64,000 nt of DNA from assembly GCA_946558695.1 (NCBI GenBank), contig CAMNTQ010000001.1:1-64000 (forward strand), in the 5' to 3' direction. The notes below the pieces were generated by a model. It saw nothing but the letters and a program-made list of their open reading frames with translations. It did not search any database and was not told the origin of the DNA. How positions within the stretch are numbered: position 1 is the first letter of the stretch; each line of letters begins with the position of its first letter. Positions 36,810 to 55,627 of the stretch are shown here, one piece after another. This DNA is from an uncultured Lachnospiraceae bacterium (GTDB lineage: Bacteria > Bacillota > Clostridia > Lachnospirales > Lachnospiraceae). Position numbers and translations under genes: made by a program.

Positions 36810-36831
36810 GGACCACCCACCGGATGGTCCG
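36810..36831 (-). terminator. Terminator downstream of the amidohydrolase gene
   Basis: GGACCATCCGGTGGGTGGTCC hairpin on the minus strand followed by TGTTTTTTT. Confidence 0.75.
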
Positions 36832-36841
36832 TCCTATGTTT

Positions 36842-38035
36842 CTATACACTATAGATTCTCTTCGCATTCTTGCGGAATATGTTTTCTGCTGCTTCTTTTC
36901 CTTCTGAGAGTGTCATAAACCCATCTTCAATCATCTCTGACAATGCCTTTGCCACTGCGTAACGTCCTGCCAGATATGCCCCATAGCTTTCAATCACTGT
37001 CCATGAATCACATCCCCATGTGATCGCATCCGCCTTTCCTGTCTCCAATAACTGTTTTAGAAAATAAACCGCTGTACTTGTAGAAATGCTAGGCAGCCAG
37101 CAAATATCAGCATACACATTTGAATAATTATGGATCAATGCCAAAGCATCATCTGTCCACGGAAAACTTCCATGAAACAGCACAAATCTGGTTTCAGGAT
37201 TTTTGCTGATCACTTCTCTGAGCAGCATCGCATTACTTCCTTCCAGTTTTCCAAGTCCGGTATGATTCTGAAACGGAATATCATATTTTGCCGCAATCTT
37301 GCAGATATGGAAATAGATATAATCCTGAAACGCGACAATATCCTCTTGTTCTGCATTCTCGTTATGATATCCTTTTTCTGCCTCTTCATATGACCGTTCC
37401 AGAAAATGGATAGAACGGTCATACGGAAGCGAAGACTTTAAAGCAACACATCCTTGTGCCATTTTTTCTTTGATGGTCTCTTCTATCCTATCCAGATACT
37501 GTTGAAAGTCCATATCCTTTGGCCATCCGTATACCTGGAACGGATTATTGCCGTTATCATCGACTGTATCCGTCCTGTATCCGAACAGAAACTGATTGAT
37601 CCGGTAAGTAGGAGTATATAACTCAGCATTTCCAAGATCTGTCCCCGGTTCCCAATAACCATCCAGAACGATCTTATCATAGTGACATACTTTGCGCAGA
37701 AAATCGTCATCTGACGCCATAGAATCAGAAAATTCTCTCAGGCTTTTCTCAAACCAGAAGTATGTCTCCTCATTCAGCCTTTGATCTGTACCCAAAAGTT
37801 TCTGCAGACTTTTCTCAATCCAGAAAAAATAGGAATTATGTCTCAGTCCTCTTACAAACTCTGCCGCTGCTTCCCTCGTTCCATCCCATGTACGATGACA
37901 CCATCCCAGATAAGAATTCTCAACTAATTCTTTCAGTCCGTTTGGGAATCCTGATTTTTCAGGCAGCTTATGACAATGTGTATTTACAATGGCAATTGTA
38001 TCTATGTAATCTGTTAGTTCTTGAAATACTGACAT
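36842..38035 (-). CDS. Amidohydrolase family (TIM-barrel metal-dependent hydrolase)
   Basis: IDTIAIVNTHCHKLP N-terminal metal motif; IPFQNHTGLGKLEG; FVLFHGSFPWTDD; WGCDSWTVIESYG. Confidence 0.85.
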   Translation of the reverse strand: MSVFQELTDYIDTIAIVNTHCHKLPEKSGFPNGLKELVENSYLGWCHRTWDGTREAAAEFVRGLRHNSYFFWIEKSLQKLLGTDQRLNEETYFWFEKSLREFSDSMASDDDFLRKVCHYDKIVLDGYWEPGTDLGNAELYTPTYRINQFLFGYRTDTVDDNGNNPFQVYGWPKDMDFQQYLDRIEETIKEKMAQGCVALKSSLPYDRSIHFLERSYEEAEKGYHNENAEQEDIVAFQDYIYFHICKIAAKYDIPFQNHTGLGKLEGSNAMLLREVISKNPETRFVLFHGSFPWTDDALALIHNYSNVYADICWLPSISTSTAVYFLKQLLETGKADAITWGCDSWTVIESYGAYLAGRYAVAKALSEMIEDGFMTLSEGKEAAENIFRKNAKRIYSV

Positions 38036-38055
38036 ATGATCCCTCCTGTATCTAT

Positions 38056-39030
38056 TTACAAATCTTTTCTGCGCACAAACTGTACCGCATGATTGAGTGC
38101 TTCAAATGTTTTTCCGTATGTCCAGTTAATAAAACCATGTACCATACCTTTCATGATATGATACTCTACTTTAACACCGGCATCTTCAAGCTTTGCCGCA
38201 TACATAAGTCCCTGATCCAGCAATGGGTCACACTCTGCCGATATAAAACATGCCGGCGGCAGTTTTGACAGATTTTCCGCAAGAAGGGGCGAGGCATGCG
38301 GGTCCTTCTTCTCCTCTTCGCTGTTAAAATACAGAGCCATTGGATCTTCCATGCAGTTATACTCAAGAAAATATCCTTTACCATAACGCTTCTCAGAATC
38401 CGTCATCTCTTCTTCTATGTTTGTCACCAACGGATAATATAATATCTGCCGGCTGATCGCGGGACCTTTCCTGTCCCTTGCCATCATAGATACTGAAGCC
38501 GCGAAATTTCCGCCGGAACTGTCCCCGCATACACTGATATCCGCAGGATCACCCCCATAGCCTTTTATATTCTCTTCTGTCCATACAAGTGTGCTGTATG
38601 CCTCTTCTAGTCCTTTCGGGAATTTATATTCCGGCGCAAGATGATAATCCGGCGCTACAACTATCATGTCCCCGTAATATGAAAGATACCGATGGACATA
38701 CTCATATACCTCAATACTGTTCATAGAAAACGCGCCGCCATGATAGAATATGACTACCGGATACGTCTTTCTTTTACCGGGAATATAAACTCTGACACGA
38801 AACTCTCTGTCTTCACACCGGCACAGAGTATCCTCTGTTTGTACTGTCATGACATCCCGGTAGCAAGCACACTTTTGATAAGCCGCCGTCATCGCTGCTA
38901 TTGATTCGTAATCGCTTTGGATTCTCCATTCTTTCCGATGCTCCATATCCATGATCTGGGGATCCATAATATTCACTTCCGGCGCCGCTTCTCCATATTC
39001 AGGCTGTAAAAATTTTCTATAAATCTCCAT
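38056..39030 (-). CDS. Alpha/beta hydrolase of the hormone-sensitive-lipase type
   Basis: VVIFYHGGAFSMNS (HGG oxyanion motif); VCGDSSGGNFAASVSMMARD (GDSSGG); C-terminal GMVHGFINW. Confidence 0.92.
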   Translation of the reverse strand: MEIYRKFLQPEYGEAAPEVNIMDPQIMDMEHRKEWRIQSDYESIAAMTAAYQKCACYRDVMTVQTEDTLCRCEDREFRVRVYIPGKRKTYPVVIFYHGGAFSMNSIEVYEYVHRYLSYYGDMIVVAPDYHLAPEYKFPKGLEEAYSTLVWTEENIKGYGGDPADISVCGDSSGGNFAASVSMMARDRKGPAISRQILYYPLVTNIEEEMTDSEKRYGKGYFLEYNCMEDPMALYFNSEEEKKDPHASPLLAENLSKLPPACFISAECDPLLDQGLMYAAKLEDAGVKVEYHIMKGMVHGFINWTYGKTFEALNHAVQFVRRKDL

Positions 39031-39031
39031 A

Positions 39032-40000
39032 CTAAACCGCCTTCCTTACTTTTTTCTTCCCGGCAAGCTGTTTTTGAATTCCGTCTAAGCATACTGCCCC
39101 AAGGAAAATACATCCTCTGATGATCAGCTGGTAATATTCACTGATATTTAAAATCGTCATTCCATTAGTCAGTACACCGATGATCAGTACTCCGCATACT
39201 GCTGTAGAAATGCGCCCTTCACCGCCGGTCAGACTGACTCCGCCGATAACCGCCGCTGTCAGACAGTCCATTTCCATATTCTTTCCTGCTGTAGGCTGAC
39301 CGGAACTAATCCTTGCAAGCATAATGATTCCTGCAAGTCCGGATAAAAATCCCCCGATGGCGTAAGTCGCGACTTTTAATTTTCCCGTATTGATCCCGGA
39401 TAGTCTTGCCGCTTCTTCATTACTTCCGACAGCATAAAAATGTCTCCCTATATAAGTGCGGTTTAAAATAACTGCTGCAATAGCAATTACTATAATAAAT
39501 AAAATCACCGGCAGAGGAATGCTTCCTACATAGCCCTGTCCTACCACCTTTGCTCCATCCGGCAGATTGGATACCGGCATTCCTCCGCATATCAGATACG
39601 CCGCCCCCTGCAATATGATCTGCAGCGCCAGTGTTCCGATCATCGGAAAAATATTCGTTTTAACAATAATGATACCTGTGACCAGACCGATCAGTGTTGC
39701 CACAAGCAGTCCTGTAAGATATGCCGGAATCAGCCCCAGCTGCGCCTGTGTCAGCAGAACAGCCACTAATACAGACTGAAGGGAAATAACCGAACCAAGA
39801 GACAGATCAATTCCGCCCGCTATCATAACAAATAACAGTCCGATCGTCGCAATTCCCATAATAGAAGACTGGCGGACTACAGTAAACAAATTAGACATTG
39901 TTAAAAAAGACTCTGGCTGCAGCACGCCAAATAATATAATCAAAAATAATAATATTACTAATACAAAATACTGTTTTATAAAATTTTTCAATTTATCCAT
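39032..40000 (-). CDS. Ribose/sugar-type ABC transporter permease (RbsC-like)
   Basis: MIAGGIDLSLGSVISLQSVLVAVLLT...YAVGSNEEAARLSGINTGKLKVATYAIGGFLSGLAGIIMLARISSGQP. Confidence 0.95.
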   Translation of the reverse strand: MDKLKNFIKQYFVLVILLFLIILFGVLQPESFLTMSNLFTVVRQSSIMGIATIGLLFVMIAGGIDLSLGSVISLQSVLVAVLLTQAQLGLIPAYLTGLLVATLIGLVTGIIIVKTNIFPMIGTLALQIILQGAAYLICGGMPVSNLPDGAKVVGQGYVGSIPLPVILFIIVIAIAAVILNRTYIGRHFYAVGSNEEAARLSGINTGKLKVATYAIGGFLSGLAGIIMLARISSGQPTAGKNMEMDCLTAAVIGGVSLTGGEGRISTAVCGVLIIGVLTNGMTILNISEYYQLIIRGCIFLGAVCLDGIQKQLAGKKKVRKAV

Positions 40001-40012
40001 TTTACGCTCCTC

Positions 40013-41497
40013 CTAAGTCGTAATGTTCGATGCATACTTAAGAATCTTATCCTGTGAAAAATCTTCTTTTTGAAGTTCTCCTACAATATTGCCTTCTGCC
40101 ATCACCAGCATACGGTCAGACATCCCCATAATCTCTTCCATCTCTGAAGATATCATGATGATTCCCAGTCCTTCTTCCGTCAGTTTATTGATCAGCTCAT
40201 AGATTTCCTGCTTTGCTCCCACGTCAATCCCTCGTGTAGGCTCATCGAGGATCAATATCTTTGATTTACTCGCCAGCCATTTAGCAACTGCCACTTTCTG
40301 CTGATTTCCGCCGGAGAGATTCCCTACTAACTGATTGATCGTCGGAGTCTTGATCCGTAATGCGTCTTTATACTCATTGACACATTCATTTTCCTTTTTT
40401 GCATCAATAAATATAAATCGGGACAATCTTCTTAAGATCGGAAGAGTAATGTTCCACCGGATTGACATCTTCAGCAATACTCCCTGATTCTTCCTATCCT
40501 CAGAAACATAGGCAATTCCTTTTTCTATAGCATCTTTAGGAGAATGGATCGAAACTTTTTCTCCCTTTACATAGACTTCTCCAGAGTATTTCTTATCCGC
40601 GCCAATGATCAGTCTTGCAATCTCTGTCCTTCCGGCCCCCACCAGACCGGCTATTCCTACGATCTCCCCCTCTCTTACATAAAAGGACGTCTCCGCATTG
40701 GAAGGTCCGGCGATGTTTTTTATCTCTAATAGCTTCTCCCCATATTTGGGAGTTCTTGGAGGATATGTTTCGGTCAGCTCACGCCCCACCATATCAAAGA
40801 TCAACTGATTCCTTGTAGTATCCTGTATGTCCGTTGTCTTTATTACCTGACCGTCACGCATAACCGTTACCCTGTCGCACAATTCAAATATCTCATCCAT
40901 CCGGTGGGATATATAAATAACAGATACACCCTTTTCTTTCAGATTTTTTACTAATTTAAAAAGAATCTCTACTTCATTATCTGTAAGCGGAGCCGTCGGC
41001 TCATCCATGATCAATAACTTTACGTTTTTAGCCAGTGCTTTTGATATCTCTACCAACTGCATGTAAGCAACTGTCAGATCCCTGATCTTTGTCCCCGGAT
41101 CAATATCTGCGTTCAGCGACTCCAAAACTTCCATTGTTTTATTCGTCAGCTTCTTCTTATCTATAAATAAACCTTCGTTTACTTTATTTCCCATATAGAT
41201 ATTTTCTTCTACCGACAATGAAGGAGCAAGATTGAACTCCTGATATATCGCTTCTATCCCTATCTGTCCTGACAAGATCGGATTCAATTCTGTGTAGCTT
41301 TTTCCCTGGTATATGATACTTCCCTCGTCAGGCTTTATCGCGCCTGTAATGATCTTTATCAGTGTTGATTTTCCTGCACCGTTTTCACCTACTAATGCAT
41401 GGACCTCTCCTTCTTTTACCGAAAAAGAGATGTTATCTAATGCTACTACGCCCGGATATCTTTTCGTAACATTTTTTATTTCTAATATATTATCCAT
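40013..41497 (-). CDS. Sugar ABC transporter ATP-binding protein (RbsA/MglA-like, two NBDs, intact motifs)
   Basis: LVGENGAGKSTLIKIITG; LLIMDEPTAPLT; NLSGGNQQKVAVAKWL; ILILDEPTRGIDVGAK. Confidence 0.95.
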   Translation of the reverse strand: MDNILEIKNVTKRYPGVVALDNISFSVKEGEVHALVGENGAGKSTLIKIITGAIKPDEGSIIYQGKSYTELNPILSGQIGIEAIYQEFNLAPSLSVEENIYMGNKVNEGLFIDKKKLTNKTMEVLESLNADIDPGTKIRDLTVAYMQLVEISKALAKNVKLLIMDEPTAPLTDNEVEILFKLVKNLKEKGVSVIYISHRMDEIFELCDRVTVMRDGQVIKTTDIQDTTRNQLIFDMVGRELTETYPPRTPKYGEKLLEIKNIAGPSNAETSFYVREGEIVGIAGLVGAGRTEIARLIIGADKKYSGEVYVKGEKVSIHSPKDAIEKGIAYVSEDRKNQGVLLKMSIRWNITLPILRRLSRFIFIDAKKENECVNEYKDALRIKTPTINQLVGNLSGGNQQKVAVAKWLASKSKILILDEPTRGIDVGAKQEIYELINKLTEEGLGIIMISSEMEEIMGMSDRMLVMAEGNIVGELQKEDFSQDKILKYASNITT

Positions 41498-41584
41498 ATG
41501 TAAGTCTTCACCTCACCCATAATCCATTGCTTCCAAAAAATTAATGGTATAGCATACAATCTATACCATTAATCTGTGTCCTCT

Positions 41585-42580
41585 CTATTCCTGACTTGCA
41601 ATATATTCCTCAACATTGTCTGGGGTTATCGGATCAAGCGGGAACAAGACTTCTCTTTCATCCAACTTTCCATTTTCTGTCAATTCAATTGCCATATCAA
41701 TAAAATAGTCCGAATGGAGCAGCATATTGGTAGTAACTGTTGCTTTAAACACGCCATTTTCTTTCAATGCTGCCAAAGCGTCATCAACTGCATCTCCTCC
41801 AAACATTCCTAATTTATCGCCTTTGATACCTGCAGATTTGAAAGACTCATAAACTCCTAATACTCCGGCATCATTGATTCCGACAACTACATTCAGATCA
41901 GGATTAGACTGCACCCATGCATCTCCGACATCCACACCCTCCGGAGTATATCCGGCTTTTGCTGTTACTACAACCTCAGCGCTTGGCGCAAGTTCCTTTA
42001 ACGCATCTAAAATGCCTTCTTCCCTTGTTACCAGAAACGGATAATCCGGATAATTACACACGCCTACTTTAGCTTTTTCAGACTCTTTAAAATTCTCGTT
42101 GATCCATTCTGCCGCGTTTTTCCCGATCGCGTATCCATACTCATGATTGTCAATTCCGATAAATCCGGATGTACCTTCGATGTCTGAATCATATGAGATA
42201 AATTTAACACCTGCACTCTCTGCATTTGCCGCTGCATCTTTGAGAGCATCCGCATCCGTAACATGACAGATGATAGCTGTACATCCTGCCTCTACAAAGT
42301 TCTCGATACCAGTGATCTTATCACTGATCTCCGGACATTCCTTTACAGTGAGAGTTACACCTTTCTTCTCTGCATCTGCCTGCATATTCTGTACCAGATG
42401 AGCGAAAAACGCGTCTGACATATCACTGACAACAAAACCAATCTTTACCTTCTTTGAATCATCCTTTGATTCTGTTGTCTCAGAAGATTCCCCTCCCCCG
42501 GAACTGCCGCATCCGGCCAATGACCAGACCATCATCAAAACCATAACTAATGCTGCTGCTTTTTTCCACACTGTTTTCAT
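41585..42580 (-). CDS. Sugar ABC transporter substrate-binding lipoprotein
   Basis: Lipobox WSLAGCGSSGGGESS; periplasmic-binding-protein type-1 fold segments KVKIGFVVSDMSDAFFAHLVQNMQ...INDAGVLGVYESF. Confidence 0.93.
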   Translation of the reverse strand: MKTVWKKAAALVMVLMMVWSLAGCGSSGGGESSETTESKDDSKKVKIGFVVSDMSDAFFAHLVQNMQADAEKKGVTLTVKECPEISDKITGIENFVEAGCTAIICHVTDADALKDAAANAESAGVKFISYDSDIEGTSGFIGIDNHEYGYAIGKNAAEWINENFKESEKAKVGVCNYPDYPFLVTREEGILDALKELAPSAEVVVTAKAGYTPEGVDVGDAWVQSNPDLNVVVGINDAGVLGVYESFKSAGIKGDKLGMFGGDAVDDALAALKENGVFKATVTTNMLLHSDYFIDMAIELTENGKLDEREVLFPLDPITPDNVEEYIASQE

Positions 42581-42670
42581 TTCTTCTTCCTCCTTTAGGT
42601 TATTGATGACCATATTATAACCACTATGAACATACACAACAATGCGGGAGATTTTGGAATATGTGTATTT

Positions 42671-44134
42671 TTATTGGAAATACTCAGAAAACTTCTTCCT
42701 GTCAACTTCTCTGACGATCCGGTTATGCTCTATCACTATCATCCGGTCACAGAAAGGCATCAGATGAGAAATGTCCGCGCTGCCAAGCACTATGCACGTT
42801 CCTTTCCTCTTAAACTCCAGCAGCAGGATCTCAAGCTGCCGTCTTGATACGGCATCCAGCCTTAAAAATGGTTGGAAACAAAACAGGATTTTGGGATTTG
42901 CAAGCTGCCATCTATGGTATATGATCTGCATCGCATCCCTTCTGCTCACACTTCCCATTTCCTGATTGATCCGTGTATTTTCACAGATTTCCATCCCGAT
43001 CTTATCAAGGTATTTCTTGACTCTTCCATTGATAAAACACCCGAACATGGTTGTCTTTTTATAGATTGCCATCTCCATATTCTCACGCACAGAAAGATCA
43101 GGAAAAATAAGCGACTGATATTGCTCTCCATCTACAACACCGATATGGTTCTTTACTAATTTATATTCCGAATCTGCCTTATATACCGAGCCGTCAATAA
43201 TCAGATTCCCCTTGTAATATCTGCGTCCAAGCAGCAGCCTTCTTAACTCTCTGCTGAATTTGTCCTGAAAATCATATATTCCGAGTATCTCTCCTTTCCT
43301 GCAGTCAAAAGACAGATCGTCAAAATATTCGTTTTGTATATGATCTGCCCGGAAAATGACTTTACCTGCTGCCGCGCAATGTCCCTCTTCTGACTCCTGA
43401 GATTTCTTCTGTCCTGCAAGACATTCTAAAAGCTTCTGTTTATCATACTCTTTCTTATAGAACATCATGCCATTTCTGCCCTGACGGATTATCATAATTT
43501 TATCTGATATCTCAGTAATAGAATCCGGATAACTGTTAATCCATAATATGGATACTCCTTCTTCTTTGAACCGCTCTAATATACCTATGATCTGATCGAT
43601 CCTGTCAAACGAACAATCCTCCAGTATATCATCAACTACGATCAATCTGGCGCGTTTTACATACGCACGCATCAGACGTAGAACATAACACTCATACCTG
43701 CTGAGCTTTATTGCCTTTTTTTCCGGCGCGATTTCAATGCCAAATGACTCGAACAATCTTTTAGCCTGCTGGATCATTTTCTTTTTTGATACACTTAACT
43801 GAAAATAATTGATCTTTTCAATGATATATAAATTTTCAGCCACACTCAGATTCGGTATGATCAGCTCCTGATTGCCGATAAAAAATATTCCATTCAACTT
43901 CTCAACCGGCAGTATCTTCCCCTTTTCATAATATTTGCCTGTAAACCATATTTTCCCCTCATCAATGCTCTCATCGCCAAATAAAACCGAATATATTTCC
44001 GCTTTCCCACTGCCTTCAAGCCCGATCAGATTTATGATCTCTCCGCTTAAGATTTCCATAAAAAAATGGTCTAACACTCTGCTTCGCGCTTTTTCTTTTG
44101 TAATATCTTTCATTAATAAAACATCATTTTTCAT
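42671..44134 (-). CDS. Degenerate RbsA-like tandem ABC-ATPase (probably non-catalytic)
   Basis: Aligns along its length with the RbsA-like gene at 40013-41497 but has GLEGSGKA, LSRYE, VVDD and no H-loop in NBD1, and no P-loop plus FCFQPF for Walker B in NBD2. ORF intact. Confidence 0.85.
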   Translation of the reverse strand: MKNDVLLMKDITKEKARSRVLDHFFMEILSGEIINLIGLEGSGKAEIYSVLFGDESIDEGKIWFTGKYYEKGKILPVEKLNGIFFIGNQELIIPNLSVAENLYIIEKINYFQLSVSKKKMIQQAKRLFESFGIEIAPEKKAIKLSRYECYVLRLMRAYVKRARLIVVDDILEDCSFDRIDQIIGILERFKEEGVSILWINSYPDSITEISDKIMIIRQGRNGMMFYKKEYDKQKLLECLAGQKKSQESEEGHCAAAGKVIFRADHIQNEYFDDLSFDCRKGEILGIYDFQDKFSRELRRLLLGRRYYKGNLIIDGSVYKADSEYKLVKNHIGVVDGEQYQSLIFPDLSVRENMEMAIYKKTTMFGCFINGRVKKYLDKIGMEICENTRINQEMGSVSRRDAMQIIYHRWQLANPKILFCFQPFLRLDAVSRRQLEILLLEFKRKGTCIVLGSADISHLMPFCDRMIVIEHNRIVREVDRKKFSEYFQ

Positions 44135-44136
44135 CG

Positions 44137-45159
44137 TTAATTCATGTATTCCTCAATCTGATATATGAGCGGCATAGATATATGCACCTGCGTGCCGACT
44201 CCCAGCTCACTGACAACCACCATATACGCCTTTTCTTCCCAATAAAGCTTTAATCTTTTTCTTATATTCTTTACCGCGACTCCATTGTGGCGCTTTGTGT
44301 TTTCTCTGGACAGATTATCCTCATTTCTGTCATCCAGATCACAGTTGAGCTCATCCACCTTTTCCTGTGTCATCCCCATTCCGTCATCCGCGACATTAAT
44401 CTTAAGACTTGATTTTGTTGCCGTAATATGTATTGTAATCTTTCCCGCCCCCATCTTCATCTCCAGTCCATGGTAAATAGCATTTTCAATGACTGGCTGC
44501 AGGATCAGCTTAGGGATATAACAATTACTCACCAGACTTTCTTCAATATCATGATATATGATCTCACAGGATATCTTATCTCCAAATCTGGTCTTTTGTA
44601 TATTAAAATAGTTCATTCCATTCTTCAATTCATCCTTCAGATATACAAATGTTTCTTTTCGGCTGATATTGTACCTGAAATAGTTCGCAAGGGATAACGT
44701 CATCCCCGCAATTTTCTCCTCTCCATTCAGTAATGCCTCCCCACGTATTACTTCCAGCGTATTATATAAAAAATGGGGATTTATCTGATCCTGAAGATTA
44801 TTGATCTCAGCATTCTTCTCAAGAATTTCGGCATTTTTCTCTTTAAGGGCTATAGAATCCAGAGATGAAATAATGCTTACGATCTCTTGTATCATATCAT
44901 CATCTTTCATCTGTCCATGATTCAGTTCTTTGATCTGCCACGTAAGTCTGAGATTCGGCAGATAAATATCTCTGTAAAACCAAAAAAAATATATAATGCC
45001 TATTACAAGCTCTGACAAAATCATTAAAATATCCAGTAATGTGTGCTTTGGAGTGCAAATGACCAGAATAATATTTCCGGTCATTAACAGCAGCCACACA
45101 ACCATGCCTGTTATCATGAATTTTTTCATATTTTTTGACGAATATTTTCTTCTTTGCAT
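44137..45159 (-). CDS. LytS/YesM-type sensor histidine kinase with minimal extracellular loop
   Basis: Two TM segments separated by about 7 residues (TPKHTLL); INPHFLYNTLEVIRGEAL H-box; LILQPVIENAIYHGL N-box; VADDGMGM. Confidence 0.92.
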   Translation of the reverse strand: MQRRKYSSKNMKKFMITGMVVWLLLMTGNIILVICTPKHTLLDILMILSELVIGIIYFFWFYRDIYLPNLRLTWQIKELNHGQMKDDDMIQEIVSIISSLDSIALKEKNAEILEKNAEINNLQDQINPHFLYNTLEVIRGEALLNGEEKIAGMTLSLANYFRYNISRKETFVYLKDELKNGMNYFNIQKTRFGDKISCEIIYHDIEESLVSNCYIPKLILQPVIENAIYHGLEMKMGAGKITIHITATKSSLKINVADDGMGMTQEKVDELNCDLDDRNEDNLSRENTKRHNGVAVKNIRKRLKLYWEEKAYMVVVSELGVGTQVHISMPLIYQIEEYMN

Positions 45160-45171
45160 ATTTTCCCTTCT

Positions 45172-46782
45172 TTATGAATATAGCTTTCTATATTCAGACG
45201 GTTTAAGGCCTACCTGCTTTGCAAACTGTTTGCTGAAATATCTTGCATCCTGATACCCAGAGCGATAAGCAATCTCACTGACGCTCAAACCCGTCTCCAC
45301 TAAGAGGCGGCTCGCCTGTTTTACCCTGCATTGTATCAAGTATTCCGAATAAGTCATACCTGTCTCTTTCTTAAATACAGAACTTAAATAAGACGCATTC
45401 ATCTCCACCAATTCCGCTAACTGGTTAAGACTGATTTCCTGCATATAATTGCTCTCGATGTATTCTTTTACTATCCGGATCGGTTTGATGTCTTTCTGCT
45501 TCTTTTCTTCATCCAGATATTCAAGGATCTCTTTTATCAGATCTTCTGTCACTGAAAGAAGCTGTCTCTCCCGTTTCGTATTATCAACTCTGACATTCCA
45601 TTTTTTAAAACTATTTTCATAGTCAAGGTTATCTAAATGCTGTTTACAGTAGTCTGCCAGCAGGTCCACATAAATGATCAGAACATCAAAAAACAGGATC
45701 GGCGAATAATTTTCATATGAAAACTTGATCCTCCTCAGTGTCGATGCCACACATTCCTGCGCTCCTTTTATATCTCCGGAAACTATTTTGGAAATGTAGC
45801 CCTGCTTGTTCTTTTCTGTTACAACCGCTTCGATATTGTACGAATCAAAATGATAATTCTCTAAATATATAATCCCTGTATCTGCGATCTGTATCCTATA
45901 TTTGATCGCATCCACAGCAGTCTTAAGACAGAGACTGGACTCAGAAAAATTATTCATCTTCTGTCCCACTCCTATAACCACAGAAAACCCTTCAAACCGG
46001 TCCACATACTTTTTGATATTCTCATACAATTCCTCTATCTTTTTCTTAACAAGATTCTCCTGCTCTATCTTATAGTTAAATAAAGTAATGATTCCGGAAT
46101 TCATATCTGTAGTGATATGCTCTTTACATACCTTTCCCAAAATACCGGTATATTTTTCCAGTTCTTTTACTATCGAACCAATGCTCTCTCCCTCTTCCCC
46201 GCCAGTATCTATCTTAACAAACGCAGCCTGAAAAACACCTTCTTCGAATCTTGTACTGTATTCTCTGTTTATGCTGTCTCTGTCAACGCCTTCTTCCTTT
46301 TTATCCTGTCCCCAGATCATAGAAGTCAAAAACTTTTTTTTCATCTTATCCTTCGTCGCTTTAATCTCCAACCTCAGGTTGTTTTCGTAAGTATCATGCG
46401 CTCTTTTATCCAATATCGCTTCCCTGATCTCCTGCGCGATCTCTAATAATTTATCCTCCTCTATGGGTTTTAGAAGATAATACTTAACGCCATATTTCAT
46501 GGCGTTCTGGGCATACTCAAACTGCCTGAAACCACTGATCATAACAAATTCAGCTTCAATCTGCGCCTCTTTCGTCTTTTTTATCAGCTCAATGCCATCA
46601 TAACCCGGCATACGAATATCGGATATAATAACATCAGGCTGTTCTTTTTTGATCATTTCAAATGCATCTACTCCCGTATATGCCATCCCGATGATTTCAA
46701 ATCCTAACTTCTTCCAGTCCAATAACCGGGCAATCAAAAAACAAATTGTTTTTTCATCATCTGCTATCAATAGTTTCAACAT
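45172..46782 (-). CDS. YesN/AraC-type response regulator
   Basis: MLKLLIADDEKTICFLIARLLDW...DVIISDIRMPGYDGIELI; C-terminal AraC HTH LNQLAELVEMNASYLSSVFKKETGMTYSEYLIQCRVKQASRLL. Confidence 0.93.
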   Translation of the reverse strand: MLKLLIADDEKTICFLIARLLDWKKLGFEIIGMAYTGVDAFEMIKKEQPDVIISDIRMPGYDGIELIKKTKEAQIEAEFVMISGFRQFEYAQNAMKYGVKYYLLKPIEEDKLLEIAQEIREAILDKRAHDTYENNLRLEIKATKDKMKKKFLTSMIWGQDKKEEGVDRDSINREYSTRFEEGVFQAAFVKIDTGGEEGESIGSIVKELEKYTGILGKVCKEHITTDMNSGIITLFNYKIEQENLVKKKIEELYENIKKYVDRFEGFSVVIGVGQKMNNFSESSLCLKTAVDAIKYRIQIADTGIIYLENYHFDSYNIEAVVTEKNKQGYISKIVSGDIKGAQECVASTLRRIKFSYENYSPILFFDVLIIYVDLLADYCKQHLDNLDYENSFKKWNVRVDNTKRERQLLSVTEDLIKEILEYLDEEKKQKDIKPIRIVKEYIESNYMQEISLNQLAELVEMNASYLSSVFKKETGMTYSEYLIQCRVKQASRLLVETGLSVSEIAYRSGYQDARYFSKQFAKQVGLKPSEYRKLYS

Positions 46783-46873
46783 GCTGTACCTCCATTTCCC
46801 TGCCATATCAACCGGCAGGCAAGACAAACGATCCTCCTGCAAAATCCTCATTTTTCATGTAAATTACACATAA

Positions 46874-46896
46874 AAAAGCTAGAGATACCTAGCTTT
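46874..46896. terminator. Hairpin upstream of the YesN/YesM operon
   Basis: AAAGCTAG-N6-CTAGCTTT in the 46.87-47.1 kb intergenic region; a GGCTGC-GCCG-GCAGCC hairpin follows at about 46913-46930. Confidence 0.45.
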
Positions 46897-47060
46897 CATC
46901 CAATGTCCGTCGGCTGCGCCGGCAGCCATCAGCTCTCTGTTTTTCATTTTCAATCATAACATACATCTTTCAGACAAGCAAATAATATTCTCTTTCGAAA
47001 AATCACGTCTCATGAAGATAAAAGTCCAAAACACAGCAGCCGCGCCCCTGTACAGTAAAT

Positions 47061-47087
47061 AAAGCCGGAAGATCTCTCCCCGGCTTC
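47061..47087 (-). terminator. Terminator of the disrupted SBP gene
   Basis: AAGCCGGGGAGAGATCTTCCGGCTT on the minus strand, downstream of stop 47132. Confidence 0.7.
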
Positions 47088-47131
47088 ATTTATATATTTT
47101 AAAATAATAACACCTAACGTTTTGCTCAGGC

Positions 47132-47699
47132 CTATTCCTTTGCAGTTTGCGCAAATTCCACATTTACAAGATCTTCATAAGGCGCTCTCTTTGCAAGTTC
47201 TCCTGCCTCTTCTAAAATATCCTGGAGAAGTTCAAAGCTCTCTTTTTCAAACACCAGGTTATCCTTCCATGTATCCTGCTCATAGTAACGGTTCACAATT
47301 GTTGTGATCGTATCAAGGTCCGTCTCTTTAAATTGCGGCTCTATAGCTGCGGCAATTTCTTCCGGCTTATGAGACTGTACATAATCCATACCCTTTTGCA
47401 GCGCATTGGTGAATCCCTGAACTACCTCCGGGTTGTCTTTGATATAGCTTTGTTTTGCCGAAAAGGCGGTATAAGGAACATATCCGCTGTCTGTTCCAAG
47501 AGATGCCACTACATAACCTTCCTTCTCCTTTTCAAGTGCAGTTGCAGATGGTTCAAACTCTACGCTAAAATCCCCCTGTCCTCCGGAAAATGCCGCTGCT
47601 GTCGCGCCAAAATCAATACTTTGATCAATTTTTACATCCTTCTGCGGGTCAATGTTATTTTGTTTCAGGATATACTCAAATACCATTTCCGGCATACCG
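47132..47699 (-). pseudogene. C-terminal half of an SsuA/nitrate/taurine-type ABC substrate-binding protein, cut by a serine-recombinase element
   Basis: From the attL core: GGMPEMVFEYILKQNNIDPQKDVKIDQSIDFGATAAAFSGGQGDFSVEFEPSATALEKE...; its N-terminal continuation is at 50880-51131. Confidence 0.9.
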
Positions 47700-49613
47700 C
47701 CTGCCTGCCTCATTATCATGTAAATCTGGTTCATAACCCACCTTAGAAAATACACACTTCTGAAAGTCTGCAATCAGTTCCTTGATCTCCTCTTTTGTTT
47801 TGATGATCAAATAAGGTCTAAGCGGATCCTCCGCCGGTTCTGCCAGTCCCTTTTCTATCATCAGGCGAATATATGGCAGGACTGCTTTCTTCGACTTCAA
47901 ATATCCTGCTTCCGTAAGTTTCGCCGACAAATACCTTGCAGAGATAAAGCCGCGGTTATCTTCGTATATTAACTTCATAACTTTCAGGATGATCTCATTC
48001 TCACTCCGATTTAATGCCTCTGCGGGACTATATTGTATAAATGCGGTAATACCGTATTTTAACCCGATTTCGGGCAGGCCACTTTCATCGACCTCGATTT
48101 TCTCAATAAGAATTTCTATATCTTTTCTGTTCAACGTTCCGTTTTTTATGATCTCATCAATAACCTCAAGAGCAGTTGTCAGCTTTTTCTTTACGTTTGC
48201 CGTTTCAGATACGGACTCGGAAAGCTCCTGTAGTTGCTGTTCTAACGAATGAATACGCGCCAAAATATCATTCTGCAAAGAATCATATCCCTCCGCGATC
48301 AATTCTTGATTTCCCCCATGAAAAGCCAAGTCCTTGATTTTTTGAGCAAACAAAGATCTTAACTGCCTTTTCTGACCTTCGATCATTTCCCTGACTGCTG
48401 CCCTCTCCTCTTCTGCAGATTTTTTTTCTATCCCGAAATCTTTCAGATCATAGGCAGCAATCATCTCACACAAAGAATCACGGCAAAGACGGATATAATT
48501 TATCATATCTTTCATCAAATCGTTCTCTTCAATCAGATGTGCTTTCCGGCAATATCTTTTACCCTTTGTATTATAAGTACTGCAAATATAATATTTTCGT
48601 TCTCTGCCGGACGTTTTACGGACAATAGGCGTAAGACGGCTTCCGCAATCTTTGCAGAACAGACATGTTCCAAAGGGATTGGCAGTTTTTGTTCCCATCC
48701 ACGGTCTGTGGCTCCCACGGTAATTTGTTTTTACGCGTTTTGTCTTCATATCCTGCACCAGTTCAAAAGTCATTTTATCAATAACAGGCTCGTGATGATT
48801 CTCAAAAATATATTGTTCTTTTTTCGGAACCCGTTTGTCTTTTCCATGCACCGCGGCTCTTGCGCGTTTATGGAGACGATAAGTCCCAATATAAAAATCA
48901 TTGTCCAATATACTCTTTACCATACTGTCAGACCATTCCAAAACCACCCTCCTTTTACTTATCCTGCCTTCAGAAAGTTCTCGCTCATGACGGGCAGCAG
49001 ACGGTGTAGGAATAAAATGTTCTGTCAGGTACGCAGCTATTTTTCTATATCCCAAACCTTGCATATAGAGTTCATAGATCTGTTTTATCTGTTCTGCTTC
49101 ATTTGGTACGATTTCAATAATCTCTTTATTCTTTTCATTTCTCTTATACCCAAATGGTACATGTGTCAGAAGTGTTCCCTCTTTTTGGCGCGCTCCCAGA
49201 ACACGCCGGATTTTCTTACTGGTATCTTTCACATATTTTTCATTATACCACGTTTTAATTCCTATCACATCATCATCCGGCGAGCAGGAATCATAATTAT
49301 CATCAATCACTATCAGGCGTTTCCTGCGTTCTTTAAATTCATCCAACAGCAGTAATACTTTTGCGTTGTGACGTCCAAGTCTGGAAAAATCCTTGACAAA
49401 TACCAAATCAATATCTTTCTCCAGATCATCCATCAGCCTATTAAATCCGGGCCGGTCAAATTTATAGCCGGACACCCCGTCGTCTTCATACCAGCGGTCT
49501 ACGACTAAATTCTGCGAAGCAGCATACTGGCTGATGATCAATTTTTGGTTTTCAATAGAAATATAACTGCGTTTATCATCATCTTTTGACAGCCTTACAT
49601 ATCCTGCGTTCAT
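47676..49613 (-). CDS. Large serine recombinase (resolvase + recombinase + zinc-ribbon domains)
   Basis: NAGYVRLSKDDDKRSYISIENQKLIISQYA; FVKDFSRLGRHNAKVLLLLDEF; CLFCKDCGSRLTPIV...YYICSTYNTKGKRYCRKAH; the last 7 codons are derived from the host side of attL. Confidence 0.96.
   Translation of the reverse strand: MNAGYVRLSKDDDKRSYISIENQKLIISQYAASQNLVVDRWYEDDGVSGYKFDRPGFNRLMDDLEKDIDLVFVKDFSRLGRHNAKVLLLLDEFKERRKRLIVIDDNYDSCSPDDDVIGIKTWYNEKYVKDTSKKIRRVLGARQKEGTLLTHVPFGYKRNEKNKEIIEIVPNEAEQIKQIYELYMQGLGYRKIAAYLTEHFIPTPSAARHERELSEGRISKRRVVLEWSDSMVKSILDNDFYIGTYRLHKRARAAVHGKDKRVPKKEQYIFENHHEPVIDKMTFELVQDMKTKRVKTNYRGSHRPWMGTKTANPFGTCLFCKDCGSRLTPIVRKTSGRERKYYICSTYNTKGKRYCRKAHLIEENDLMKDMINYIRLCRDSLCEMIAAYDLKDFGIEKKSAEEERAAVREMIEGQKRQLRSLFAQKIKDLAFHGGNQELIAEGYDSLQNDILARIHSLEQQLQELSESVSETANVKKKLTTALEVIDEIIKNGTLNRKDIEILIEKIEVDESGLPEIGLKYGITAFIQYSPAEALNRSENEIILKVMKLIYEDNRGFISARYLSAKLTEAGYLKSKKAVLPYIRLMIEKGLAEPAEDPLRPYLIIKTKEEIKELIADFQKCVFSKVGYEPDLHDNEAGRRYAGNGI
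47691..47727 (-). other. attL: host half plus one attP arm (ATGTAAATCT at 47718-47727, core at 47700-47701)
   Basis: Comparison with 50852-50890; arm-to-core spacing exactly 16 nt. Confidence 0.85.
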
Positions 49614-51143: not shown

Positions 51144-52583
51144 TTATACTTTCTTAAGCTTCCCAGTCTTCGCCAGCTTCACAAGCTTCAGATTCTGGGT
51201 TTTGCTTCCCTTGTAGTTCCTGATTCCATTCTTAGACGCTACCGGCTTCCGCTTCATGTAAGTGTCTCTGAACTTCGCCGGTACACCAATGGCTTTAAAA
51301 ACCTCATCTATCCTTTCTGATTTCCCGGTATACTTTTTGTAGCAGCCCGCGGATCCGGATGAAGAACTTCCCGCAGATGTTCCGGATGTCTGGCCGTTTC
51401 CTGCCGATGTCTGGCTGCCGGCCGATGTACTGCTTCCGGATACGTCATACTTTGTCAGGCTATACTTCTTAATAAGGTTGCAGATTTTCTCAATATAATC
51501 CGGAGAAGTTGCATATCCGCCATCCTTGATGACAGTGATCGCCTTCTTATAGCTTGTCTCACCCTTGATTCCCTCATACCGTTTCTTCTTGCCGTTCATG
51601 GCGCCGAGCAGGTATGCGCTGTGATCTGCGATAGACTTTGCAATATCAGGATACTTCCGGAATTCTGCCGTGACTGTAACATACTTTCCGTTCACGTGCT
51701 CCTTTGTGGGTTTCTTATATACAGACTTTCCGTCCCAAGCGGAATCCGGCCAGTTATTCCCGGAAAGATTCCTCTTCATCCCGAAACAGTTATTTGCTGC
51801 CTGTGCAAGCTCTGATCGGCCGTAATCGGATTCCAAAATAAACTGCGCCAATGATACGGACGCGAGAACCCCCGTCTTTTTCTGGTCCGCCGTGAAGAGC
51901 GGGCCGACCTTCTTAATGATATCCGCCACATTCATATTCTTTAGATCAGACGCTTTCAATGCTTTGCTGATAACGACTCCTGTACCAACATTTGTTCCAG
52001 TGTCATCCCCTGCACTTAAGGACAGCTTGCTCCAAAACTCACTTTTCCACTTCTCATCCCTTTCATCCGTCCCGCACCAGTAAGCAGGGCAGCTCTTTCC
52101 ATTTACATCAAAATGCCGGATTACATTTTCAGCAGGGACACCGTACTTCTTCATCAGGTCTTTTGTAAGCTCCAGCGCAATCCCGATCGCGGCCTCAGTA
52201 GGATAGATTTTCTTGTCCTTCCTGTCATCACACAGCTCAATACTGATGCTGTTGCTGTTCGTGCACTTTCCGTAGAACTTCCCGCCTCCCGTTGTCTTGC
52301 AGTTGCTGTATTTACTGCCGCCAACCGAATACGCGGTATAATCGTCCGGGACAGACTGGGTAACGCTGTCTGAATCTACAAAGTAATGCGCTGATGCCTT
52401 AACGATGTTATTGTGAAAATAATTTCCATTTCCCTCATCCGTATCTCCGTCATTCGCCGTATAGTGGATGACGATATATTTCACCGCAGAAATCTTCCGG
52501 CTTGCGCCGTAGTTCTTTCTATTGGCAAGCTTCTTTTTCAATTTGTATGCCATAACTGCTCCTTTCTTCGTGCGACGTCGCAC
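51144..52583 (-). CDS. Phage endolysin: N-acetylmuramoyl-L-alanine amidase plus glucosaminidase-type domain
   Basis: KYIVIHYTANDGDTDEGNGNYFHNN...HYFVDSDSVTQSVPD; VSLAQFILESDYGRSELAQAANNCFGMKRNLSG; Ser/Gly-rich linker. Confidence 0.9.
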   Translation of the reverse strand: MRRRTKKGAVMAYKLKKKLANRKNYGASRKISAVKYIVIHYTANDGDTDEGNGNYFHNNIVKASAHYFVDSDSVTQSVPDDYTAYSVGGSKYSNCKTTGGGKFYGKCTNSNSISIELCDDRKDKKIYPTEAAIGIALELTKDLMKKYGVPAENVIRHFDVNGKSCPAYWCGTDERDEKWKSEFWSKLSLSAGDDTGTNVGTGVVISKALKASDLKNMNVADIIKKVGPLFTADQKKTGVLASVSLAQFILESDYGRSELAQAANNCFGMKRNLSGNNWPDSAWDGKSVYKKPTKEHVNGKYVTVTAEFRKYPDIAKSIADHSAYLLGAMNGKKKRYEGIKGETSYKKAITVIKDGGYATSPDYIEKICNLIKKYSLTKYDVSGSSTSAGSQTSAGNGQTSGTSAGSSSSGSAGCYKKYTGKSERIDEVFKAIGVPAKFRDTYMKRKPVASKNGIRNYKGSKTQNLKLVKLAKTGKLKKV

Positions 52584-52609
52584 AAAAAGAGGACGCTGTC
52601 ATGCGTCCC

Positions 52610-52903
52610 CTACTCTGCCTTGTTCAACTGTTTAATGATCTGATTTACATATGTACTTAGTCCGGCCACCAGAATACCCTGCGTGACCGCGGCAAATACT
52701 CCTGCAAACGCTGCCTGTGCATCTTCAAACTGGTGAACGGAAGCCACCCACAGACCGCAGATAAATATGCCAATCACACCTAAAATAAGCGGAATGTACT
52801 TATCTTTCAGAAATGCCGCCTGCTTAAACCACATTCCCAAAAAGTACAATACGATCGCTACGATCATCAGCTCCGGTTTTACATAATTTACAATCTGTTC
52901 CAT
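52610..52903 (-). CDS. Phage holin family protein
   Basis: Small multi-TM protein (IVAIVLYFLGMWFKQ; YIPLILGVIGIFICGLW; FAAVTQGILVAGLSTYV) adjacent to the endolysin. Confidence 0.8.
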   Translation of the reverse strand: MEQIVNYVKPELMIVAIVLYFLGMWFKQAAFLKDKYIPLILGVIGIFICGLWVASVHQFEDAQAAFAGVFAAVTQGILVAGLSTYVNQIIKQLNKAE

Positions 52904-52904
52904 C

Positions 52905-53114
52905 TTATTCTTCCTTCCTTTCTAAATCTTCTATTCTGTGATTTGCCACTTTTATTTTTTCTTCTAATAAATATGTTCGTTCAATCACAGAATTGTGTTT
53001 TTCCACCTTTTTTTCTAACTGCTCTATCCTGTACTTGATCAACTGGGTACCGCCGAAACTTCCCGCCAGCGTCCCGATCAGAGACAGGATAGCAACTAAT
53101 ACCGTATCCGGCAT
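52905..53114 (-). CDS. Small phage membrane/coiled-coil protein (XhlA-like, lysis-associated)
   Basis: N-terminal TM followed by coiled coil, next to holin. Confidence 0.55.
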   Translation of the reverse strand: MPDTVLVAILSLIGTLAGSFGGTQLIKYRIEQLEKKVEKHNSVIERTYLLEEKIKVANHRIEDLERKEE

Positions 53115-53203
53115 ACCATTACCTCCTTCCTGTTATTTTTTTCATAAAAATAAGACCTCTACGGTCTTGCTCTGATCTCCTGCATATATTCTCCTTTTAT
53201 GAG

Positions 53204-55627
53204 CTATGCCTTAACATACAAAACCTGCCAATTAATTGTCCATGTTACAGCTTTTGTATAAGTGTTCCTCCCATACATATAGGCTACATTGCTTTTAACA
53301 GAAACTTCACGAACATTGACAAATGTCGATGCCGTTCCAGATGTTGCAAACCCTACAATTCCTATCGCTGTATATCCTGATTTTGCCACATTCTTTGTTG
53401 CTGTGAATGCCGAAGATGCGGCAGCGTTCACAGATGATGATGTTGTTTCGACATAAATCAAATTTGACTTGCCTGAGAGTGTATTGCTGATAGATGTGTC
53501 TGTTCTCTTAAGCTTTTCTATCTCCTCTCCTACGTGTATCCCATATTTTTCCAAAAAAATATCTCCTGGCTCTGTATCTCCCGAGTCATCCGTTCCTACT
53601 ATGACATCTCCGTAAACAGTTGCGCCCCCTTCTATTGTCAGGCCGGGCCTCAAAGAATTCCCGCTGTTGATATTGGTTTGTTTTTCAACTCCGGCAACCA
53701 GCGATAAATATCTTGTCCCCATGGCGGTTCCTACTGTTTTCACCTGAACCAGCTTCACAGGGATCTTATTTGTTTTATCCCCATCAAAATAAAAATTGAT
53801 GCCTGTATTCACATAGATTTCACTTGCTATTACACTCCCTTCAAAGTTACCGGTCGCTCCGATCAGTTTCGCTCCAGTGATCGTTCCTGTAGCCGTGATG
53901 TTCTGTGCAAACAAATCATTCACATCAATTTTCTCCGCTGTGACTGCATGAGCTTCCAGCTTATCTGTTGTGACGGCTCCTGACGCGATTTTATCCGTTG
54001 TGATCGCCCTTGCAGCTACCTCCTCTGCCGTTATTGTCTCTGCCGCTATCTGGTTTGCTGTGATACTTCTTGCCACGATGTCAGTACCGTTCAGATATTT
54101 CTGATACACTTCATCCGCAAGCTCTGCTGCTGACAACCCGCTGCTCTCCACATTTAACTGGTATACAATGGAATCCTTGCCTGTCACAAGCAGTCTGTCT
54201 ACTGACAAGGTGCCCGCTGTGATCACATCGGCATTTATCCTGACTCCATTTAGCATGCCTGTAATAAATCCATCTACGATCGTGACATTCGTTAATATCC
54301 CTATATCGGCAAATAGCTTTCCTACATTTTCCACAGACACATTGGAAAAATCAATTTTGGCATACCCAAGCTCAGCTACTTTCGATTCCAAGTTTATCGT
54401 ATTGATATAATCTGATTGTATTCTGTTGACTTTTGCTGATACCGCTAATATATCGTCTATCGAAGCATAATTTGCTTCAAGATATTCTACAGTGATTTCC
54501 ACAGAAGTGATATGATCCACCCGGATTCTTAAAGCTTCCAATTCCTCAATACTGGCGCTTTTCGCTATCAATACGCCAATCTTTGCAACCGAAGCTTCCA
54601 ACCGTTCTTGGAACTGCGCCATCGGTCCCTTATAATCAATTTCTGACTCTGTTTCTGAATATCCAACACAGGAAAATGCCGCCGACACACCGCCATCATA
54701 CTGGAATTCCAGCGTCATTAACGGTACGTTATATGCATTTCCTTTTGTATCGTATACCTCTACTATATCCCACGGATCCAGCCTGATATCCCCGATCGGC
54801 ATATTAACGCTTGACACCGTATAGGTAAAACCGCCGATGCGTCCATATACTTCATCAAGTTCACTCTGCGTCATAAATGGATTTGATATGGATATCCCCT
54901 GTGTCCCTGCTCCTATCATTATGGATACCGCATTACCTTCTTCGTTCTGGCCTGTCGCACAGAGAATGTGGCCCAGAATAAATGAGTTCTCATCATGAGA
55001 AAAACCATTTGTATTATTTGGAGTTATTTTGTACCCTTCTATTTCTGTCCACCAATGGAATTGTATAATCCCTTTTCTGCTGACATTCGCAAATTTCCCA
55101 TACATCTGGGCGATATACATCAATACCTCCCGGCAGGTGTACCCTTCTGGTTTATTCATTGGCAGCACCGCCAGACCTGTCGTATCAATCGGGACCCCTG
55201 TCTGCGCAGAAATATCTTCCAATACTGTAATTGTATTAACAACAGATAAAGCGCATGTATATATGCCCGAAAGCTTCATCATGCGGTCATAGCCGGTAAA
55301 CTTCGTTTTCCCATTATCAGCAGCCGGTTTCTCCGGGGTAAAATAACCTACTGGGATGTACTCAAAACTTTCCTCCATCAACAGGCCCATCTCCAGCTTC
55401 CATTCCTTTCCGGCCAGCTTTATTTCCGGCTCCGCCATCTCTACTTCAATCCGCTGCGAGATCGTACTGCCGATTGTAATCGTGTCCCCGTTGTTGGAGC
55501 CTCCGTAAATGCCAATAGAATGGAACCCGGAATCAATGACCTCATTCCCGCTTGTGAGCCTTGCATGAAACGTTCTTCCGCTTTCTGTTATCCTTTCGTT
55601 GAATAAGTCTGATGACTGCAAGTACAT
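53204..55627 (-). CDS. Phage tail/minor structural protein (receptor-binding or tail-tip candidate)
   Basis: 807 aa downstream of tape measure; ITANQIAAETITAEEVAARAITTDKIASGAVTTDKLEAHAVTAEKI repeats typical of tail fibres. Confidence 0.75.
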   Translation of the reverse strand: MYLQSSDLFNERITESGRTFHARLTSGNEVIDSGFHSIGIYGGSNNGDTITIGSTISQRIEVEMAEPEIKLAGKEWKLEMGLLMEESFEYIPVGYFTPEKPAADNGKTKFTGYDRMMKLSGIYTCALSVVNTITVLEDISAQTGVPIDTTGLAVLPMNKPEGYTCREVLMYIAQMYGKFANVSRKGIIQFHWWTEIEGYKITPNNTNGFSHDENSFILGHILCATGQNEEGNAVSIMIGAGTQGISISNPFMTQSELDEVYGRIGGFTYTVSSVNMPIGDIRLDPWDIVEVYDTKGNAYNVPLMTLEFQYDGGVSAAFSCVGYSETESEIDYKGPMAQFQERLEASVAKIGVLIAKSASIEELEALRIRVDHITSVEITVEYLEANYASIDDILAVSAKVNRIQSDYINTINLESKVAELGYAKIDFSNVSVENVGKLFADIGILTNVTIVDGFITGMLNGVRINADVITAGTLSVDRLLVTGKDSIVYQLNVESSGLSAAELADEVYQKYLNGTDIVARSITANQIAAETITAEEVAARAITTDKIASGAVTTDKLEAHAVTAEKIDVNDLFAQNITATGTITGAKLIGATGNFEGSVIASEIYVNTGINFYFDGDKTNKIPVKLVQVKTVGTAMGTRYLSLVAGVEKQTNINSGNSLRPGLTIEGGATVYGDVIVGTDDSGDTEPGDIFLEKYGIHVGEEIEKLKRTDTSISNTLSGKSNLIYVETTSSSVNAAASSAFTATKNVAKSGYTAIGIVGFATSGTASTFVNVREVSVKSNVAYMYGRNTYTKAVTWTINWQVLYVKA

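Follow-up and report, generated by a model that had tools for sequence, protein, structure and literature searches.

A catalytically degenerate RbsA-type protein as the likely third component of a two-component system with a sensorless YesM-type kinase

Introduction

Many YesM-type histidine kinases in Clostridia lack a sensor domain, and the source of their input is unknown. The operon analysed here raises the question of what an RbsA-type protein without a catalytic site does directly behind the gene of such a kinase, and whether it may supply the missing input. The operon lies in a stretch of 64,000 nucleotides from an uncultured Lachnospiraceae bacterium (assembly GCA_946558695.1, contig CAMNTQ010000001.1, positions 1 to 64,000), the whole of which is called the window below. 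An initial annotation of the window had described an intact 487-aa ORF between a kinase and an SBP gene as a dead relative of RbsA (pseudo-RbsA in the following), and had proposed a regulatory pseudo-ATPase, possibly serving as an adaptor between transporter and kinase.

Results and Discussion

Organisation of the operon

The length, the intact frame and the position between the kinase and SBP genes were all confirmed, and the gene was located on the minus strand. It starts 2 nt past the stop of the kinase gene, with the SBP gene downstream, and belongs to a same-strand block in the order regulator, kinase, pseudo-RbsA, SBP, RbsA, RbsC, esterase-like hydrolase and amidohydrolase (Table 1). The alpha/beta-hydrolase gene is also present in an orthologous operon (L086). 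Hydropathy analysis of the window kinase indicated two adjacent TM helices and no sensor domain; its catalytic histidine is His129, and H129, N226 and D258 are invariant across the kinase family.

Table 1. Features of the operon and of the pseudo-RbsA gene in window coordinates
Feature	Position	Strand	Evidence or remark
Amidohydrolase-like enzyme, operon end	36842..38035	minus	PF04909; terminator-like site 36830-36810
Alpha/beta-hydrolase, esterase-like, last part of operon	38056..39030	minus	PF07859
RbsC-type permease	39032..40000	minus	PF02653
Intact RbsA-type ATPase, comparator	40013..41497	minus	Pfam and motifs
Lipoprotein-like sugar-binding protein, Peripla_BP_4	41585..42580	minus	Pfam; start inferred at MKTVWKK, ORF 41585-42637
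Pseudo-RbsA, 487 aa, intact ORF	42671..44134	minus	Family profile 528 bits; AF2 model mean pLDDT 82, two ABC NBD folds
Former NBD2 Walker B, FCFQPF, residues 418-423	42866..42883	minus	DE in 0/80 relatives
Former NBD2 signature, VSRRD for LSGGN, residues 396-400	42935..42949	minus	LSGG in 0/80 relatives
NBD2 post-Q-loop segment, residues 344-356, near-invariant Asn352	43067..43105	minus	Asn in 77/78 relatives
Former NBD2 P-loop, GIYDFQDKFSRE, residues 285-296	43247..43282	minus	Alignment to RbsA
NBD1 Walker B relic, LIVVDDI, residues 164-170, catalytic Glu replaced	43625..43645	minus	Alignment to RbsA
NBD1 signature relic, LSRYE, residues 144-148	43691..43705	minus	Alignment to RbsA
NBD1 post-Q-loop segment, residues 91-104	43823..43864	minus	Most conserved stretch of the family, 1.53x mean information, 78 relatives
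NBD1 Walker A relic, GLEGSGKAE, residues 38-46	43997..44023	minus	Alignment to RbsA GENGAGKST
Short YesM-type histidine kinase, 340 aa	44137..45159	minus	PF06580 and HATPase_c (Pfam)
YesN-type response regulator with AraC output domain, 559 aa	45172..46851	minus	Pfam

Loss of the only catalytic site of RbsA

Pseudo-RbsA can be aligned along its entire length to the operon's own RbsA (25% identity across 489 columns, E=3e-48) and fulfils the RbsA-type criterion of two fused ABC NBDs spanning the full protein, with a Pfam ABC_tran match in the N-terminal half only. Its top NCBIfam matches were sugar ABC ATPases at about a quarter of the cut-off, the best score reaching 170.5 bits against 689, and no dedicated NCBIfam family appeared among the matches of 23 of its relatives. 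An AlphaFold2 model calculated with the family alignment showed ABC NBDs in both halves, with a pTM of 0.53 that leaves the relative orientation of the two NBDs unsure. The best Foldseek matches of this model were the tandem importer ATPases OppD/DppD (TM up to 0.73), and a PDB sequence search returned only generic ABC proteins.

One of the two ATP sites of RbsA-type ATPases is already degenerate, the second Walker A lacking its lysine and the first signature being poor (PMC11466899), and the RbsA of the window shows the same degenerate site (GAGRTE, LTVAY). Because the lysine of the NBD2 P-loop and a good NBD1 signature are already missing in RbsA, its single active site consists of the Walker A/B motifs of NBD1 and the LSGGN of NBD2. 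With this refinement, the motif losses claimed in the initial annotation all held, namely GLEGSGKA, VVDD, INSYPD and LSRYE in NBD1 and GIYDFQDKFSRE, FCFQPF and VSRRD in NBD2. The catalytic Glu of NBD1, the H-loop His, the P-loop of NBD2 and its entire signature are gone, and motif inspection revealed no competent ATP site made up of NBD1 Walker A/B and NBD2 LSGGN. Its sequence thus shows that neither half of RbsA's single catalytic site survives in the window protein, from which the loss of ATPase activity is inferred.

A conserved family under purifying selection

The initial annotation had suggested searching for a motif-degenerate family linked to YesM/YesN pairs and determining dN/dS, and had named frameshifted orthologs as a refutation. 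The family was found, its linkage proved nearly invariant, and the relatives that were examined showed no frameshifts. A search of 150 genomes of the window's family yielded eight further proteins with the same motif losses, which seeded the profiles for wider searches. With the first profile (A1), members and RbsA seemed to be set apart by a gap at 426 versus 370 bits; this was wrong, and a wider profile (A2) replaced it, since loci at 340–370 bits proved to be members. Because the genome samples were subsets, the resulting counts are lower bounds: at least about 27 genomes in a family sample of 396, 12 more in the same class but in different families, and five beyond that class. Relatives thus occur in dozens of genomes of Lachnospiraceae, other Clostridia and other classes of Bacillota, with both gut and environmental bacteria among the carriers. 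We obtained 73 named loci from species genomes, whose hosts include Robinsoniella peoriensis, Kineothrix alysoides, Anaerocolumna, Blautia schinkii, Ruminiclostridium cellobioparum, Tepidanaerobacter, Caproiciproducens, Natronincola, Bacillus sp. HNG and an Erysipelotrichaceae MAG.

A motif census of 80 relatives found neither an LSGG nor the DE of the NBD2 Walker B in any of them; the DE of NBD1 remained in three, and the P-loop of NBD2 was lost in all but one. The Walker A lysine was present in 42/80 and a lysine followed by S/T in 18/80. Because the same losses recur in 80 relatives, while the RbsA proteins of the same operons kept the core motif residues in 31/31 cases, the motif loss goes beyond chance. 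New conserved motifs have appeared at the old positions, D-x-x-N-x4-[DE] at the former NBD2 P-loop and C-x-Q-P-F at the NBD2 Walker B, together with an N-terminal E-x-x-R (E in 76/78, R in 71/78 relatives). The peak of conservation has moved from the catalytic motifs to the post-Q-loop segments LTVADNIFV and MSYLDNLCF. In ABC importers, the post-Q-loop region borders the groove for the coupling helix of the permease. The dN/dS value was 0.027 against the copy in another genome of the same genus (G151) and 0.04–0.18 in other close pairs, with similar values for kinase and regulator, which shows purifying selection.

Reciprocal linkage to short sensorless kinases

The order regulator-kinase-pseudo-RbsA was present in nearly all of 42 loci; the only exceptions were an orphan gene (L129), a locus whose kinase ORF is split (L079) and one that lies at a contig edge (L088). 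A kinase gene lay directly upstream in 53/54 pseudo-RbsA loci versus 1/76 RbsA loci, although these counts are partly redundant, the same locus having been fetched twice in places. Among the named loci the kinase was directly upstream in 65/73; the remainder comprised contig edges, ORF-calling problems, the orphan, the split kinase and three permuted Ruminiclostridium-type loci, in which all three genes are still together.

All 40 kinases analysed by hydropathy showed two adjacent TM helices without a domain between them. The linked kinases have no sensor domain, since their TM helices are confined to the N-terminal ~95 residues and the catalytic His follows at positions 127–160. A juxtamembrane Pro motif considered as a docking helix was rejected, being HAMP-like and occurring in this form in only 24/75 kinases. 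A profile that separates the short kinases from conventional YesM kinases gave matches in about 34 of the 200 genomes sampled from the window's family, with several copies in some of them.

The linkage also holds in the reverse direction. A two-NBD ORF lay directly downstream in 34 of 39 further short-kinase loci, or 35 after ORF correction of one locus (L193). Of the other four, one has an NBD1-only pseudo-RbsA located upstream of its regulator (L209), one is a fusion (L210), and in two the kinase has no partner (L212, L213). In contrast, none of 20 conventional YesM kinases of 577–626 aa had an ABC ORF directly downstream, even though many of these long kinases sit in operons of the order regulator, kinase, SBP and RbsA. 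Because the long kinases gave 0/20 and the short ones are mostly paired, pseudo-RbsA accompanies kinases that lack a sensor domain. The two controls, RbsA loci and conventional YesM kinases, rule out chance operon order, and adjacency or fusion of a short sensorless kinase and a pseudo-RbsA, which we propose as the criterion of a three-component family, is met.

A natural fusion of kinase and NBD1

In one genome (G182, locus L210), a single protein of 616 aa consists of a short kinase and a degenerate NBD1, with TM segments at 31–91, the kinase core extending to 368 and NBD1 at 400–614. This NBD1 matched the pseudo-RbsA profile with 92 bits (E=2e-30) and the RbsA profile with 33 bits. The genome of a second species carries the same fusion (L317, 87% identical), and at the matching locus of a related species (L318) the kinase (360 aa) and pseudo-RbsA are unfused products of overlapping genes, the NBD1 of the latter sharing 36% identity with the fused domain across 146 aa. 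The fusion of otherwise separate neighbours is strong evidence of direct functional contact, with NBD1 as the contacting half. A contact between pseudo-RbsA and the kinase is therefore an inference, albeit a well-supported one, for which there are no bench data.

Evolutionary origin

A tree computed from 70 kinase-linked proteins and 33 RbsA proteins showed one split between the two groups (SH-aLRT 99). Pseudo-RbsA was not sister to the RbsA of the same operon, which rules out a recent duplicate of the neighbouring rbsA. Mirror-tree partial correlations of pseudo-RbsA distances over 27 loci were 0.63 with the kinase (jackknife 0.59–0.68), 0.24 with RbsC and −0.12 with RbsA. Both the split and the mirror-tree values are possibly affected by fast evolution and long branches. 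Two proteins fell near the RbsA side of the tree: one, beside a short kinase, retains almost the full set of ATPase motifs, including GENGAGKST, LDEP, LSGGNQQ and GSGKST (L146), and the other is partly degenerate and adjoins a kinase that retains an extracellular domain of ~200 residues (L201). They look like intermediates, which fits a course in which an active ATPase was recruited first and catalysis and the kinase sensor were lost later.

Proposed mechanism

We consider it likely that pseudo-RbsA is a dedicated third component of the two-component system, a pseudo-ATPase whose docking to the sensorless kinase provides the latter with its input, although no biochemical or genetic data are available. 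In this model, a tandem RbsA-type ABC ATPase would have been recruited into a system with a sensorless YesM-type kinase and a YesN-type regulator. It would attach to the kinase from the cytoplasm, mainly via NBD1, and would take the place of the missing sensor domain, its conformation setting the balance of kinase and phosphatase activities; the regulator would then set expression of the sugar-uptake operon. The operon context suggests that pseudo-RbsA reports the state of the sugar importer. More tentatively, the signal may lie in the state of the adjacent RbsC permease and SBP, a complex that could serve as docking partner for the importer-type coupling-helix groove still present in pseudo-RbsA; a contact with the permease is untested. 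Permease, SBP and a cytosolic ligand all remain candidates for what is sensed.

Of the role proposed in the initial annotation, the regulatory pseudo-ATPase and the kinase partner are strongly supported by the degenerate family, purifying selection, gene order, distance tracking and fusion, with the ATPase loss resting on sequence inference. The transporter end of the adaptor is no more than plausible: most loci carry RbsA, RbsC and SBP genes, and contact with a transporter has not been shown. The orphan pseudo-RbsA without a kinase and the two short kinases without an ABC partner speak against the adaptor model.

Alternative explanations

In a bolder version of the model, pseudo-RbsA would cap the RbsC permease-SBP complex in place of RbsA, forming a non-transporting transmembrane sugar receptor that signals to the sensorless kinase, and the fusions would show the adaptor becoming part of the kinase. 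We lean slightly against this version.

It is possible, though less likely than the main model, that pseudo-RbsA instead acts as a sensor of ATP/ADP or of a cytosolic sugar derivative, binding its ligand without hydrolysing it and informing the kinase independently of a permease. This is supported by the P-loop remnants of some members and by the absence of a permease gene near some loci. However, the P-loop lysine is missing in about half of the family and the NBD2 P-loop in nearly all of it, and nucleotide binding therefore cannot be general.

A role as a structural transporter subunit, i.e., a non-catalytic NBD pairing with RbsA or RbsC and tuning transport, with kinase adjacency as mere operon order, appears unlikely. 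In its favour are the RbsA-RbsC-SBP genes at most loci, the retained importer-like tandem NBD fold and the weak partial correlation with RbsC. Against it, a complete two-NBD RbsA is already present, linkage follows the kinase, the fusion partner is the kinase, and distances track the kinase and not RbsA. In addition, two loci have an SBP but no RbsA or RbsC nearby (L036, L037), and at another the transporter is on the other strand (L041).

An active ATPase with a non-standard site is very improbable: the kinase-linked L146 protein shows, by its motifs, that ATPase-competent occupants of this gene slot exist, but the window protein lacks the catalytic Glu, LSGGN, NBD2 P-loop and H-loop, and no relative in the census has an LSGG. 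Finally, a decaying pseudogene of a duplicated rbsA, for which the low similarity to RbsA and the loss of all catalytic motifs could be cited, is practically excluded by open frames in full-length relatives, dN/dS values of 0.03–0.18, the new family-wide motifs and the position in the tree.

Comparison with known systems

Pseudo-RbsA resembles the RbsA/MglA/XylG/AraG ATPases in its two fused NBDs, full-length homology and gene location near an RbsC-type permease and an SBP, but it lacks the catalytic site, follows the kinase rather than the permease, and scores 170 bits against NCBIfam equivalog cut-offs of 586 or more in this group. With XylFII-LytS-YesN and CuaD-CuaS-CuaR (PMC10384115) it shares a YesM/LytS-type kinase, a YesN-type regulator, a third component and a sugar ABC operon in Firmicutes. 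In those systems the third part is an extracellular SBP which binds an extracellular kinase domain of ~270 residues (PMC10384115), whereas the kinase beside pseudo-RbsA lacks a domain of this kind and its additional component is a pseudo-ATPase of the cytosol. Because the kinase lacks an extracellular domain, the SBP is unlikely to act via either of these routes (PMC10384115).

BceAB-BceS flux sensing (PMC6978683) likewise involves a sensorless two-TM kinase receiving its signal from an ABC protein, and its criterion of a short sensorless kinase beside an ABC gene is met by the pseudo-RbsA loci. However, BceAB is an active exporter-type transporter, kinase family and partner differ, and at pseudo-RbsA loci a dedicated dead ATPase coexists with an active one. 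A BceAB-type permease with a large extracellular domain was not present at pseudo-RbsA loci, the neighbours being RbsC-type importer genes. In PstB-PhoU-PhoR (PMC6978683, PMC5775613), the state of an importer is passed to the kinase via an extra cytosolic protein; PhoU does not have an ABC fold, whereas the proposed relay is a relative of the transporter ATPase itself. By analogy, BceAB-BceS and PstB-PhoU-PhoR may be regarded as functional analogues of the proposed mechanism.

No description of the pairing of a pseudo-RbsA with a sensorless kinase was found in the literature searched, most subscription journals being outside the scope. The pseudo-RbsA family offers sensorless YesM-type kinases a dedicated, genetically linked partner, and the natural fusions point to the contact surface between the two. 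If the model holds, the ABC pseudo-ATPases of this family would form a large and apparently undescribed class that acts in signalling instead of transport, as well as a new variant of transporter-coupled signalling, and many genes nameable as sugar ABC ATPases by similarity would be misnamed.

Unusual loci and mobility of the operon

The orphan pseudo-RbsA (L129/L257, 611 bits) is flanked by an isoleucyl-tRNA-synthetase-like ORF on one side and peptidase-like ORFs on the other, with no kinase nearby. In Lachnoclostridium sp. UBA5725 (L079/L284), the kinase ORF is in pieces, by sequencing error or decay, and regulator and pseudo-RbsA are intact. The permuted loci of Ruminiclostridium cellobioparum and a relative (L288, L290, L287) have the order pseudo-RbsA, a chemoreceptor-like ORF of ~680–750 aa, regulator, kinase and RbsA. 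Both partnerless short YesM-type kinases (G173) belong to RbsC-regulator-kinase operons without a two-NBD protein, and that of L212 has an N-terminal start without an obvious TM segment. The window's own genome contains two more, very divergent loci of the order regulator, kinase, pseudo-RbsA, RbsA, RbsC and SBP (L128 and L187, on contigs C20 and C42).

The eight-gene block of the window (36829–47103) is 98.7% identical over 10,275 bp to that of G151 (L074), where it occupies a different chromosomal site. Homology stops at both ends of the block, and no terminal repeats were seen. None of the other four genomes of the genus gave a match at the same threshold. The identity of the blocks at different sites suggests horizontal transfer as a unit. 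Beyond the block, at 47132–49613, a large serine recombinase ORF (47676–49613) overlaps a truncated SBP-like ORF (47132–47773), which was possibly interrupted by an integrative element. Prophage-like genes, including amidase/lysin-like and tail-like ORFs, are located near the recombinase at 51144–55627.
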